Below are positions 15,281 through 20,254 of a stretch of DNA of 63,882 bases, piece by piece. The notes under the pieces were generated by a model. It saw nothing but the letters and a program-made list of their open reading frames with translations. It ran no database searches and was not told where the DNA came from. Location: NCBI RefSeq assembly GCF_017656495.1, contig NZ_JACDNS010000011.1:1-63882 (forward strand), read 5' to 3'. Source of the stretch: Thermococcus sp. Its GTDB lineage: Archaea > Methanobacteriota_B > Thermococci > Thermococcales > Thermococcaceae. Both the position numbers and the translations under genes were made by a program. Every line of letters starts with the position of its first letter. Within the stretch, counting starts at the first letter, position 1.

Positions 15281-15340
15281 CCATTAACGAGTATTTGTGC
15301 CAGAGAGGAGCCCAAGCACAGCGTTGGCATGGTGAGATGG

Positions 15341-16159
15341 ATGGAAACGAAGGGATTTTCTCCCGATGTGTTCTTCATTCCGTGCTATGTGATCCTCCTC
15401 GCACTTACCCTTTATGGCAAGATTGAGAATGCCTATATGACCTACGGTCAGCCAGGCATCACGTTTAACATCACAACTTGCGTGCTTTTTAACATTGCCT
15501 TCCTTGGATGTGTTGTCTTTGGCTGGATCTATATCACGGAGAGAGTGACATCATTCGTGGATCCCGAAGCAGGCCAGAGGATAAGGACTTTGAGTGCCAT
15601 ACCCCTTGTTCTTTTCCTGGGTTGCTATGCAGCGGCAATCAGAGTGGTTGATGCTCAGAATGTTGAAGTTCTGCGAATCCCGAACTTCGTTCCGTGGCTT
15701 GTCACTTGGGAGAGATGCAAAGATTACATCTTTCTTGACCCTTACCATCTCATTCTCTTTATTGTGGGCTTCTTGTGTCTACTTGCCACAATGAGTATCC
15801 CTGTCGGAATGGCCTTTGGAAAGAAAGCTTTTATGACGGCTCTCGTATCTAGCTTCGGGGCGTTGCTCGTCGGTCTGGTATATCAAGACTGGTTCTGGTT
15901 CGTCTCACACCCCACGGCATACTTGACATATGGTGGCAGATACGGTGTCTTCTTCAACCAGTGGATGGAAGTCCTCGGCTTTCATCTACCAACAATTTAT
16001 GTTGTTGCCCACATCTTAGGCCTCCCAATGATTATTGTCCCCCCGTTGCTCATCTGTCGCAGACAGAAGGCCGTTCCCTATATCGTCGGCCTTTTTGGCC
16101 TTCTTGCCGTTTTAATCCTCTTTGGGGTAGCATATGTCAAGTTCGTCAAGAACATTTGA
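15341..16159 (+). CDS. seven-helix membrane protein, probably acquired
   Basis: A 272-residue integral membrane protein of unknown function. Seven hydrophobic segments are clear, for example VFFIPCYVILLALTLYG, VLFNIAFLGCVVFGWIYI and IVGLFGLLAVLILFGVAYV, with Trp/Tyr-rich loops (YQDWFWFVSHP). No cofactor or catalytic motif is recognised. ATG 15341 is preferred because GGTGAG (15331-15336) precedes it; ATG 15329 and GTG 15332 are in frame. Codon use is visibly richer in G and C than its neighbours, and a 19-bp direct repeat lies on both sides. Both point to insertion between the divergent PAC2 and MTA phosphorylase genes. Confidence 0.75.
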   Translation: METKGFSPDVFFIPCYVILLALTLYGKIENAYMTYGQPGITFNITTCVLFNIAFLGCVVFGWIYITERVTSFVDPEAGQRIRTLSAIPLVLFLGCYAAAIRVVDAQNVEVLRIPNFVPWLVTWERCKDYIFLDPYHLILFIVGFLCLLATMSIPVGMAFGKKAFMTALVSSFGALLVGLVYQDWFWFVSHPTAYLTYGGRYGVFFNQWMEVLGFHLPTIYVVAHILGLPMIIVPPLLICRRQKAVPYIVGLFGLLAVLILFGVAYVKFVKNI

Positions 16160-16197: not shown

Positions 16198-16227
16198 TTT
16201 AAATCGAAGATTAACAAGGTGATGTCC

Positions 16228-17001
16228 ATGCCAAAGATTGGAATTATTGGCGGTTCTGGTGTTTATGGTGTCTTTGAGCCAAAAGAGACGATAAAGGTTC
16301 ACACACCTTATGGAAGACCATCAGCACCCGTAGAGATAGGAGAAGTTGAAGGCGTTGAAGTAGCTTTCATTCCAAGACACGGCAAAAACCATGAGTTCCC
16401 CCCACATGAAGTACCATATAGAGCAAACATCTGGGCTCTTCACGAGCTTGGCGTTGAGAGGGTCATAGGAATCACAGCCGTTGGCTCCCTCAGGGAGGAG
16501 TACAAACCTGGAGACATTGTAATTACCGACCAGTTTATTGACTTCACGAAGAAGAGGGAATACACATTTTACAACGGTCCGAGAGTTGCTCACATAAGCA
16601 TGGCTGATCCCTTCTGTCCAGAAATGAGAAAGATATTCTATGAAACAGCTAAAGAGCTAAACTTTGAAGTTCACGAGAAGGGAACCTATGTCTGTATTGA
16701 AGGGCCAAGATTCTCAACAAGGGCTGAATCCGCGATGTTCAGGCAGTTTGCCCACATAATTGGAATGACTCTCGTTCCCGAGGTAGTTTTAGCAAGGGAG
16801 CTTGGAATGTGCTATGTTAATATCGCAACGATTACGGACTATGATGTCTGGGCTGACAAGCCAGTTGACGCTCAAGAAGTTCTCAAAGTCATGAAGGAGA
16901 ACAACTATAAAGTCCAAGAAATCCTTAAGAAGGGCATTCCAAGGATTCCCGAGGAAAGAAAGTGCGGCTGTGCTGATGTGCTTAAGGCAGCCTTTGTTTG
17001 A
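16228..17001 (+). CDS. mtnP: S-methyl-5'-thioadenosine phosphorylase
   Basis: Cleaves methylthioadenosine with phosphate to adenine and methylthioribose-1-phosphate in methionine/polyamine salvage; 257 residues, cytosolic hexamer in relatives. It starts [14 protein letters not shown]; the phosphate-binding GGSG and RHG motifs, the [11 protein letters not shown] substrate motif and TDYDVWA are present. A CGC motif at the C-terminus (KCGCADVL) matches the cysteines that form disulphides in the Pyrococcus furiosus enzyme. ATG 16228 follows AAGGTGAT; upstream GTG 16219 and ATG 16222 fall inside that ribosome binding site. Together with the MTA/SAH deaminase at 18977 it gives two routes for using MTA. 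Confidence 0.95.
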
Positions 17002-17040: not shown

Positions 17041-17133
17041 ACTTAATCTGCTTTGTAGTTGGTTGAATACTTTTTGGGTGATCTCTTTTATAACGCATTG
17101 AAAGAAAACAATAACACTATAGCAAAGCGTAAA

Positions 17134-17143
17134 AATTAAATAT
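17134..17143 (+). promoter_or_regulatory. putative TATA box of the halocin-like cassette
   Basis: AATTAAATAT about 35 bases upstream of ATG 17176, in the correct spacing for a short leader carrying the GAGGTG ribosome binding site at 17165-17170. Confidence 0.45.
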
Positions 17144-17175
17144 GAGTTTTCGTTCATAATTTTTGAGGTGCTCCT

Positions 17176-18000
17176 ATGAAGAGGCTTTTGAGCCTTATGT
17201 TGTTGGGGTTAATGCTGGGCTTAGTGATTAGCCCGGCTTTAGCAAGTGCAGAAAGTGTTCCTGAGCAAACACTAACTGTTCAGCAAATTTCAACATGCCC
17301 ATGCTGTTCTGGGAACATAACTCTGCCAAAAGACTTTAAAATACAGGAGCTAAAAGGACCAGCTGCCTACTTTGTCACTATGCATTTAATATCATCAGAA
17401 GATATATCAGATATGAAAACAAGATTAGGCATTGTGAGGATTCGCCCAGAGTATAAAAGGGCGTATATTAGGCTTATAAGAATGGACAACAAAATCATCG
17501 AACAGGTATCTGTTCCACTTAGGGTGTACATGAAAAATGGAGAGTCTAAAGGTCTTCTATTAGTATTAAGAAATTCTACCGGGATATATAAGGTACTCGC
17601 TGTCGAAACAGGTACTCAAGAAATACATGGTGTGTATGTGAAGGAGACATTAGATGGCAAAATACGTGTTGTTGGTTCTTTGACGATTCTTTTGGGTCAG
17701 GAAAACATAGAAAAATACGGCCCCATTATAGCTCAGTCAAAAATTGTTGTCCCAATTGATAAATTTATGAAAGTCTGTAAGTGGACCGTTAACAAAATCT
17801 GTCAAAAGGGATTGGGTGGCTTCTGGACATGTGGTTTTTGTGTATTTGCTCCATTGTGGCCAGTAGGTCCTGCAATATGTGCCATTATTTGTTGGTACTT
17901 TGAGGACAAGTATTCAGAAACCATAGACAAAGTTTGTAAGGAGAGTGCAGAAACTATTTGTAGAAGATTAGCAAATCTAGGTTTGGTTATAATTGAATAG
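17176..18000 (+). CDS. secreted Cys-rich precursor, halocin-C8-like (putative archaeocin)
   Basis: 274 residues. A Sec-type signal peptide (about 1-26, ending PALASAES) is followed by a CPCC motif (about 41-44), a ~155-residue middle domain, and a C-terminal domain with eight cysteines at residues 201, 209, 219, 222, 235, 239, 254 and 262. Its core runs CKWTVNKIC ... CGFC, a hydrophobic Gly/Pro stretch, CAIIC ... YSETIDKVCKESAETIC. From memory this matches halocin C8 (CKYAAGQVC, hydrophobic centre, YSGC..AVAKEAC), whose precursor is also ~280 residues, with an immunity part before the mature peptide. The next gene starts 21 bases on. The bacteriocin role is inferred. Confidence 0.65.
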   Translation: MKRLLSLMLLGLMLGLVISPALASAESVPEQTLTVQQISTCPCCSGNITLPKDFKIQELKGPAAYFVTMHLISSEDISDMKTRLGIVRIRPEYKRAYIRLIRMDNKIIEQVSVPLRVYMKNGESKGLLLVLRNSTGIYKVLAVETGTQEIHGVYVKETLDGKIRVVGSLTILLGQENIEKYGPIIAQSKIVVPIDKFMKVCKWTVNKICQKGLGGFWTCGFCVFAPLWPVGPAICAIICWYFEDKYSETIDKVCKESAETICRRLANLGLVIIE

Positions 18001-18021
18001 TATACTGGAGGTTGAGCGGAA

Positions 18022-18354
18022 TTGAAAAGAAATAGGCATGTTGTTCCATCTTTTGTTTTTTTACTTTCTCTCCTAGTGATTAATTTAGTATGGAAGCATT
18101 TTTTGTCTATTGCTGAAATTTTAACACTATTAGTTTTATATGTCGCAGTATCAGGGGTTTTTTCTTATTATTTAAAAAATAACAAAATTAAATCAGTAGC
18201 TGAGTATACTCTATCAATTATTGTAGATGGATATGTGGGTATAAGAATTATCCAATTTATACGTCCTCATGATCGTAGTTCCATTTATCTTTGGGTACTT
18301 TTCATTATTTTTACATATTTAATAGGTATCAAAAGACGCATAATTAGAAGTTGA
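18022..18354 (+). CDS. small multispanning membrane protein of the halocin-like cassette
   Basis: 110 residues with three or four hydrophobic helices (about 9-26, 30-48, 58-78, 88-104) and Lys/Arg-rich termini. No family recognised. It has a TTG start at 18022, supported by GGAGGT at 18007-18012. It lies 21 bases behind the halocin-C8-like precursor and is AT-rich like it. By position it could be an immunity or export partner, but nothing in the sequence proves this. Confidence 0.65.
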   Translation: MKRNRHVVPSFVFLLSLLVINLVWKHFLSIAEILTLLVLYVAVSGVFSYYLKNNKIKSVAEYTLSIIVDGYVGIRIIQFIRPHDRSSIYLWVLFIIFTYLIGIKRRIIRS

Positions 18355-18375
18355 TAGTAAGTTGGGTGAAGGAAA

Positions 18376-18885
18376 ATGAGGTGGATGGTGATAATCTTAT
18401 TGACAATTTTAGTTTTAGGATGCATTTCTCAAAGTTATTCAGTCAAGGACATCACTTCATACTGGTCGTCCATTAAGTCCTTTGAGGCTCAAGAAACCAT
18501 CAAGTTCGGCAATCAATCCTTTGAGAGTCATGTAGTTTTTATGAAGCCTGACAAAATCATTAGGGAGGATTACGTTAATGGTTCTCTGGCTCAGAAAATC
18601 GTCATTGAGAATAACACTCAAAGGGTTATTACTTCAGATACTACTTTTATTCTTAATGCGACAATAACTGATGTTAATGCTTTAGACCCATTTGCGGCAA
18701 TACTAAACAATCTTCAGGACTTTAACGTCACGAAAAACGACGATATTTTAATTCTGAAACCCAAGACTCCAGAAATGCTCACTTATGAAGTTAAACTTAA
18801 CGGAAAACTGCCGGCTAAAATCACAATAAAACAAGCAAACCAAACAATAACAATAGAATACAAAAAACTAAAGGTAACTGGTTAG
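18376..18885 (+). CDS. secreted lipoprotein, possibly LolA-like fold
   Basis: 169 residues. The signal peptide has an LGCIS lipobox (Cys about 16), so it is probably a membrane-anchored lipoprotein outside the cell. The mature part is rich in beta-strand pattern and N-glycosylation sequons (NQS, NGS, NNT, NAT, NVT, NQT). The order of strands (YSVKDITSYW, FEAQETIKFGN, VVFMKPDKIIREDYVNG) resembles archaeal LolA/LppX-type lipid-carrier domains; this is a weak fold guess. A 21-base gap from the previous gene and the ribosome binding site GGGTGAAGG suggest it is the third gene of the cassette. Confidence 0.7.
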   Translation: MRWMVIILLTILVLGCISQSYSVKDITSYWSSIKSFEAQETIKFGNQSFESHVVFMKPDKIIREDYVNGSLAQKIVIENNTQRVITSDTTFILNATITDVNALDPFAAILNNLQDFNVTKNDDILILKPKTPEMLTYEVKLNGKLPAKITIKQANQTITIEYKKLKVTG

Positions 18886-18922: not shown

Positions 18923-18976
18923 GCAAAAACCTTATAATCATTCACTTCTCAGACTTCTTTTAAAAAGGTGATTGAA

Positions 18977-20254
18977 ATGAGCATTCTCATTAAGAACGGC
19001 TATGTTATCTATGCTGAGGAGTTAAAGGTTGTTGAGGCAGATGTTTACATTGAGGGAAATAAAATTGCCAAAGTCGGAAAAAATCTCAGTGTCCCAGCTG
19101 ACTACGTTATCGATGCAAAGGGAAAAGTTGTCTCTCCGGGGTTCATAAATTTGCACACTCATTCCCCAATGGGACTCTTCAGAGGGTTGGCTGATGATTT
19201 GCCTCTTATGGACTGGCTTCGAGAGCACATCTGGCCAATGGAAGCTAAGCTTACAAGAGAATACATCAAAGTTGGGGCTTATCTCGGTGCTCTTGAGATG
19301 ATTAAAACAGGGACTACGGCGTTTTTGGATATGTACTTTTATATGGATGCCGTTGCAGAGGTGGTTCTTGAATCTGGTCTTAGGGGATATCTCAGCTATG
19401 GCATGATTGATCTAGGTGAGCCAGACAAAACGGAAAAAGAAATTAAAGTGGCTTTAGAAACAATGAAATTCATTGAAAAGCTGAACTCTGAGCGGGTTCA
19501 CTTTGTATTCGGCCCTCACGCACCTTACACTTGCTCAATAGCTCTTCTCAAGAAGGTTAGAGAGCTTGCTAATGAACATAAAAAGCTCATAACAATTCAT
19601 GTAGCTGAAACAATGACTGAAATAGGTCAGATAGCTGAACGTTATGGAAAGAGCCCTGTTGTTCTGCTCGATGATATTGGCTTCTTAGCTGATGACGTTA
19701 TAATAGCTCACGGCGTATGGCTTGACAGCAAAGATATACACATCTTGGCGAGGCATCGCGTGAGCATCGCCCACAATCCAGCCTCAAACATGAAGCTTGC
19801 GAGCGGGGTTATGCCCATTGAGAGACTTTTGAATGCTGGAGTAAACATAGGTCTCGGTACTGATGGAAGTGCAAGCAACAACAACTTGGACATGCTTGAG
19901 GAGATGAAAATCGCCGCATTGCTTCACAAAGTTCACAACTTAGATCCAACAGTTGCAGATGCAAAGACAGTCTTTAAAATGGCAACCCAGAACGGTGCAA
20001 AAGCTTTGCACTTGAATGCTGGTGTGATAAAAGAAGGTGCTCTAGCTGATTTGGTGATTATAGACTTTAACCAGCCACACTTAAGACCTATTAACAACGT
20101 TATAAGTCATCTGGTTTATTCTGCAAGCGGCAACGATGTGGAAACAACGATAGTTGATGGAAAGATTTTGATGCTCGATAGAGAAGTTCTCACATTGGAC
20201 GAAGAGAAAATTTTGGAAAAAGCTGAAGAGGTTGTGGAGAAGCTTGCGGGGTGA
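18977..20254 (+). CDS. mtaD: 5-methylthioadenosine/S-adenosylhomocysteine deaminase
   Basis: A metal-dependent amidohydrolase that deaminates MTA and/or SAH to the inosyl form; 425 residues from ATG 18977, which follows AAAGGTGAT. Metal and catalytic motifs are visible: HTHSP (about 60-64), FGPHAPYT, HVAET, IAHGVW and GTDGSASNNN. Length and motifs match the MtaD/TrzN-like group. Substrate preference cannot be read from sequence, but mtnP nearby supports MTA metabolism. Confidence 0.88.
   Translation: MSILIKNGYVIYAEELKVVEADVYIEGNKIAKVGKNLSVPADYVIDAKGKVVSPGFINLHTHSPMGLFRGLADDLPLMDWLREHIWPMEAKLTREYIKVGAYLGALEMIKTGTTAFLDMYFYMDAVAEVVLESGLRGYLSYGMIDLGEPDKTEKEIKVALETMKFIEKLNSERVHFVFGPHAPYTCSIALLKKVRELANEHKKLITIHVAETMTEIGQIAERYGKSPVVLLDDIGFLADDVIIAHGVWLDSKDIHILARHRVSIAHNPASNMKLASGVMPIERLLNAGVNIGLGTDGSASNNNLDMLEEMKIAALLHKVHNLDPTVADAKTVFKMATQNGAKALHLNAGVIKEGALADLVIIDFNQPHLRPINNVISHLVYSASGNDVETTIVDGKILMLDREVLTLDEEKILEKAEEVVEKLAG

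Follow-up and report, generated by a model that had tools for sequence, protein, structure and literature searches.

The stretch of DNA analysed here (referred to as the window; 63,882 nucleotides of a Thermococcus sp. contig, NCBI RefSeq NZ_JACDNS010000011.1, assembly GCF_017656495.1) contains adjacent genes for a secreted Cys-rich protein, a small membrane protein and a lipoprotein, which raises the question of whether this locus encodes an antimicrobial peptide and, if so, which of its products would protect the producer. A first-pass annotation had proposed a secreted precursor that releases a C-terminal Cys-rich antimicrobial peptide, encoded next to an immunity gene. Comparative evidence, which that annotation did not have, lends strong support to this proposal. 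With a probability of about 0.83, we take the locus to be a polymorphic archaeocin cassette, with an exported precursor, a Cys-rich peptide released from its C-terminal module and a cognate immunity protein of 110 aa, in which module and immunity gene would be swapped as a unit. The best reading of the precursor is that of a diverged archaeocin of the halocin C8 superfamily, for which immunity may be encoded separately by the 110-aa membrane protein.

The features of the cassette and its flanks are all located on the + strand. A putative promoter block with BRE/TATA-like GTAAAAATTAAATATG (17124..17146), which the upstream alignment identifies as common to the related cassettes designated scaffold I (see below), is followed by a Shine-Dalgarno-like GAGGTG (17165..17170) that is seen in the sequence 5′ of the precursor gene and presumably functions as such. 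The open reading frame of the putative archaeocin precursor (274 aa, 17176..18000), for which homologues exist, starts with a Sec-type signal peptide (residues 1-25, 17176..17250) that is kept in the homologues and probably cleaved near ALASA. The propeptide (residues 26-195, 17251..17760) occurs in all scaffold I cassettes, whichever C-terminal module they carry. The Cys-rich C-terminal module (residues 196-274, 17761..17997) represents the putative mature peptide, with ~79 aa, 8 Cys and a computed mass and pI of ~9.0 kDa and ~8.5. The hydrophobic N-terminal signal and the CPCC motif (residues 41-44, 17296-17307) of the first-pass annotation are readily found in this frame, and the eight C-terminal Cys residues are located as described there, at positions 201, 209, 219, 222, 235, 239, 254 and 262. 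Also in agreement with it, a 110-aa membrane protein with a TTG start and ~3 hydrophobic segments, the putative cognate immunity protein (18022..18354), and a 169-aa lipoprotein with lipobox LVLGC, a conserved accessory gene of scaffold I (18376..18885), follow the precursor, each after a gap of 21 bases. The genes on both sides lie outside the cassette and form the conserved flanks of an insertion site. From established family knowledge, we take the left one (16219..17001; present in 89 of 94 family genomes) to be 5′-methylthioadenosine (MTA) phosphorylase-like, and the right one (18968..20254) presumably encodes an MTA/SAH deaminase-like amidohydrolase. Upstream of the left flank gene, a 276-aa multi-spanning membrane ORF (15329-16159) displays no Pfam match above cut-off.

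The three open reading frames of the cassette are confirmed as genuine genes. Precursor homologues with 92 and 89 % identity are present in two other genomes, dN/dS with respect to close homologues amounts to 0.20-0.27 for the propeptide and 0.41-0.51 for the 110-aa ORF, and the full layout of the cassette is kept at the same site in seven more genomes; for these reasons, the cassette is beyond what chance would provide. Searches of Pfam, NCBIfam and PDB gave no usable match for the precursor, the membrane ORF or the lipoprotein. Weak matches of the 110-aa ORF to PgpA, of the precursor to ArgR and of the lipoprotein to a kainate receptor were below cut-off or insignificant, and were judged to be chance. 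AlphaFold modelling reached low confidence for both the full precursor and its C-terminal 82 residues (pLDDT 46 and 55).

Distribution of the cassette is patchy. Matches to the precursor were obtained in 14 of the 115 genomes of the class, the window's own counted, and comprise the two close relatives of the same genus mentioned above, a group at ~29-43 % identity in other Thermococcaceae, and marginal matches. The marginal match in G050 is a broken remnant of a precursor. A weak match in G008 (L016) sits within a permease-like long frame and was dropped, and the match in G030 (L014) was rejected as well, as it has only the signal peptide in common with the window precursor. The G030 gene (L014:825-1584) encodes an otherwise different secreted protein of ~253 aa, the signal peptide of which is 79 % identical to that of the window precursor. 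Four genomes of the same genus (G108, G109, G111, G113) carry no precursor and have both flanking genes back to back. Hence, the patchy occurrence for which a check had been suggested is indeed observed, and the precursor is not a housekeeping gene.

The stretch 3′ of the MTA phosphorylase gene was read in 84 genomes. Within Thermococcaceae the order MTA phosphorylase – cassette – amidohydrolase describes a fixed site, and the phosphorylase gene is the left flank of all cassettes and of empty sites. The site is essentially empty in ~31 genomes, the four of the same genus among them, if empty is defined by an amidohydrolase match that begins no more than ~120 bp after the phosphorylase match ends. 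An intact precursor together with a small membrane ORF occupies it in ten genomes, nine of which also have an intact lipoprotein gene; the precursor of G074 runs off the contig end.

Alignment of the precursors displays a leader with CPCC and a propeptide motif VQELKGPxAYF in all members of scaffold I, with propeptide z-scores between module types of ~27-73. The C-terminal domain falls into five types: W (window, G110, G112), A2 (G061, G066, G073), B (G039, G092), C (G076) and D (G094). A search of the 115 genomes with the window-type module returned convincing matches in six. Leader and propeptide, promoter and lipoprotein are therefore what scaffold I cassettes have in common; the C-terminal module is exchangeable on this constant N-terminal part, and the next small ORF varies with it.

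The first-pass annotation had tentatively assigned the C-terminal domain to the halocin C8 type, based on an alignment that we regard as only a lead. Halocin C8 itself is a 76-aa peptide released from the 283-aa precursor ProC8 (PMC11509114). The respective profile, TIGR04449 (halocin_C8_dom, NCBIfam), has a curated cut-off of 24 bits. The C-terminal domain of the window precursor does not match it at E up to 10, nor does the whole precursor at E up to 1, and the domain has no match among NCBIfam or Pfam families; this outcome speaks in part against the assignment. A sister cassette in G094 (L013, type D), with the same leader and at the same site, scores 41.7 bits (E 1.7e-10). Type B reaches 18.3-18.7 bits when whole proteins are scanned by hmmscan, and G092 reaches 24.1 bits with its neighbours in frame. 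Scanned as isolated domains, 12 of 12 Thermococcus modules other than W and A2 match TIGR04449, and the W and A2 modules do not.

A sequence relation of the window module to these Thermococcus C8 modules is nevertheless detectable. Against a profile built from them, it scores 15.9 bits, a value above all of 2,000 shuffles, both in full shuffling and in schemes that keep or move the Cys positions; A2 modules score 8.7 bits against the same profile, with 10, 75 and 6 of 2,000 shuffles as high. The Cys spacing of the window module (7,9,2,12,3,14,7) fits eight of the twelve Cys of G038 (7,9,3,13,3,15,7), and 5 of 1,500 orderings fit equally well. Comparison with the C8 set by hhalign yields a probability of 15 % and an uncorrected E of 0.0017. 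Of the assignment made at first sight, the family likeness is thus retained, on account of the sister above cut-off and the score beyond shuffles, and formal membership is given up. We place the window module on a diverged branch of the C8 superfamily with 8 Cys, the tie of which to halocin C8 itself is indirect.

The TIGR04449 profile search also led to further precursors of ~315-332 aa in G038, G062, G071, G081, G092 and G094, several of which are above the cut-off and several of which lie near an isoleucyl-tRNA synthetase-like gene. In this scaffold II, the propeptides are unrelated to those of scaffold I (z about 0), whereas the modules are homologous (z up to 18.6). For one module type, the putative immunity family is the same on either scaffold: scaffold II of G092 versus scaffold I type B gives z 18.6 for the module, 11.1 for the downstream ORF and -1.2 for the propeptide. 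A second scaffold II precursor copy in G092 (L075:7765-8259) is truncated, without signal peptide and with a different Cys-rich end; it is possibly a silent module cassette.

Whether the membrane protein belongs to the peptide was addressed by comparing 18 pairs of module and downstream ORF. Only closely related modules are accompanied by related downstream ORFs. Module similarity and downstream-ORF similarity correlate with r=0.86, which 0 of 20,000 permutations within scaffold reach, although the same-type pairs include several from loci that are close relatives of each other, and the permutation test is therefore not a count of independent events. The partial rank correlation, given the propeptide, is likewise not reached in 3,000 permutations. 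The adjacent gene hence co-varies with the module, with one exception: W and A2 modules are related (z 29), but their downstream ORFs are not (z 1.2), so that co-segregation is imperfect. The limits of the exchange are visible in the DNA of G073 (A2) and G039 (B), in which 587 bp comprising flank, promoter and leader share 93.5 % identity, no match is detectable across module and immunity gene, and identity resumes at ~80 % in the lipoprotein region. From these sequences, the exchanged unit is the module plus its immunity gene.

We consider orphan loci the strongest evidence for the 110-aa protein as putative immunity protein. Intact orphan immunity genes in the absence of an intact precursor are found in G036, G050, G045, G082 and G083. 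In G036, the promoter is joined straight to what is left of a window-type module, its last ~20 codons (ETGESICRRLTDSGLVIIE); behind them lie an intact W-type immunity ORF and, further on, a D-type orphan. This fusion stems from a deletion that removed the rest of the precursor and left the immunity gene. In G050 (L026:8680-10061), tails and immunity genes are stacked (a C fragment, D-type and W-type) together with a 42-aa precursor remnant, and the D-type and W-type genes each sit behind the decayed tail of their own module type. G082, G083 and G045 carry intact orphans of C or E type, the one in G045 preceded by a C-x7-C-x5-C tail that resembles the tail of C8 modules. The truncated scaffold II copy of G092 adds a further module remnant. 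Between the window and the orphans of G036 and G050, dN/dS of the W-type immunity ORF is 0.3-0.4, which points to purifying selection on window-type immunity ORFs even as orphans.

These observations bear on who confers immunity, for which the first-pass annotation had named both the middle domain of the precursor and the 110-aa protein. As the halocin C8 gene yields both the peptide and an immunity protein (PMC8628083, PMC11509114), and the window precursor is close to ProC8 in length and layout, a HalI-like propeptide could protect the producer, with the downstream membrane protein doing another job, such as export. We regard this as improbable: the propeptide is shared across module types, whereas the type of the downstream ORF follows the module, and orphan downstream ORFs persist without a propeptide. 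Of the two candidates, the 110-aa membrane protein is hence favoured.

Readings without a toxin directed at relatives appear less probable still. Co-variation by itself is no proof of killing, and Thermococcales possess another hypervariable surface module, VARTIG (PMC8416519), so that the secreted product might instead vary as a surface or recognition protein, in the service of antigenic variation, adhesion or self-nonself marking, and its membrane partner might co-vary through binding to it. The modules, however, belong to the halocin C8 domain family, and a surface marker does not readily account for a locus that has lost its module but still has the partner gene behind the same promoter; we would give this reading very little weight. 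For a secreted Cys-rich peptide aimed at bacteria, viruses or other targets, or used for signalling, the membrane protein would be the receptor; this reading has nothing specific in its favour, and orphan membrane genes and allele swapping within the family fit kin competition better, which makes it, if anything, the least likely of the three.

For the polymorphic archaeocin cassette, gene layout, homology to precursors with a halocin C8 domain, swapping, co-segregation and orphans with module remnants are directly supported. Sec export, proteolytic release and membrane action on relatives are transferred from the halocin C8 family. The precursor would be exported by Sec, and an extracellular protease would cut just before the Cys-rich C-terminal module; for halocin C8, no protease has been assigned to the release so far (PMC12893001). 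The released hydrophobic peptide of ~8-9 kDa, probably rich in disulphides, may kill or inhibit close relatives, probably at the membrane, and the protein encoded 21 bases downstream would protect the producer as its cognate immunity protein. The conserved leader and lipoprotein would delimit recombination events that replace module and immunity gene together, and therefore provide different specificities per species at one chromosomal site; strains that lost the toxin may keep immunity genes alone. For Thermococcaceae in general, we consider it likely, with somewhat less confidence than for the window locus, that C8-superfamily modules each have a dedicated membrane immunity protein, and that these two-gene units, on two unrelated scaffolds, with a fixed hotspot and with orphan immunity in non-producers, reflect an allele-swapping arms race.

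Two constant elements accompany scaffold I. Upstream of all its precursors, and also in the G036 orphan locus, the sequence around TTAAATATGA is kept behind a G/A-rich BRE-like stretch (alignment of 10 cassettes and G036), consistent with a shared BRE/TATA element. The lipoprotein, which may be an accessory factor common to the alleles of scaffold I, is kept with 55-86 % identity; the scaffold II neighbourhoods that were read showed none. G110 has it as a pseudogene, with precursor and 110-aa ORF intact. In G081 (L071:8118-8936), a lipoprotein domain (43 % identity) is fused behind a membrane domain with ~3 hydrophobic segments that takes the place of the immunity gene. The fused gene lies elsewhere in the genome, next to a scaffold I precursor of divergent sequence. 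This fusion suggests that immunity protein and lipoprotein act together; that the lipoprotein binds the peptide is speculation.

Compared to halocin C8 (ProC8/HalI) of haloarchaea, the cassette has in common a secreted precursor that ends in a hydrophobic, Cys-rich domain of ~70-80 aa. It differs by a module with 8 Cys that does not match TIGR04449, by a Sec-like signal instead of the Tat signal of ProC8 (PMC11509114), by a separate co-varying putative immunity gene instead of propeptide self-immunity, and by its hyperthermophilic host. With polymorphic toxin and polyimmunity loci, which are known mainly from bacteria (PMC3482391), it shares a constant leader, a variable C-terminal module, an adjacent variable immunity gene and orphan remnants, but its modules are small Cys-rich peptides instead of enzymatic toxins, and it uses one site with one active module at once and no large delivery protein. 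VARTIG, a hypervariable Ig-domain module (PMC8416519), is likewise a hypervariable conflict-type locus of Thermococcales with membrane-protein genes after the variable gene; genes and architecture differ, and no Ig domains are seen in the cassette. Sulfolobicins are also archaeocins of hyperthermophiles, but consist of two proteins with signal peptides (PMC8628083) and are membrane-associated (PMC10105419). According to a paper from 2023, halocins and sulfolobicins are the only archaeocins described (PMC10105419).

We do not claim novelty for the mere presence of C8 domains in Thermococcales. Makarova et al. (mBio, 2019) reportedly used computational means to extend the halocin C8 family across diverse archaea, and Thermococcales may be among the members listed. 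As far as checked, what is new is the combination, in hyperthermophiles, of C8-superfamily modules that can be swapped and immunity genes dedicated to them. If true, immunity would be exchangeable and separately encoded here, in the family of halocin C8, the founding member, which draws self-immunity from its propeptide. Swapped pairs, or the immunity gene alone, in related species are as expected for weapons among close relatives. The locus offers testable toxin-immunity pairs, with orphan carriers as predicted naturally resistant strains and empty-site strains as predicted sensitive ones, so that peptide warfare and the evolution of specificity in hyperthermophilic archaea would become directly testable. 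It also points to heat-stable disulphide-rich peptides.

The intergenic site accommodates other contents as well, including an SNase-like nuclease, an MFS transporter, metabolic genes and a radical-SAM cassette. The SNase-family nuclease carries a signal peptide and recurs at this site (L020:10900-11361, and other genomes), with the archaeocin cassette present or absent. In G037 (L119:4283-5674), G059 (L104:536-1936) and G085 (L127:4306-5697), an enzyme with PqqD-domain, radical SAM and SPASM parts, followed by an MFS transporter, forms a peptide-maturation (RiPP-like) cassette; in G037, a 47-aa ORF lies directly before it (L119:5735-5878).
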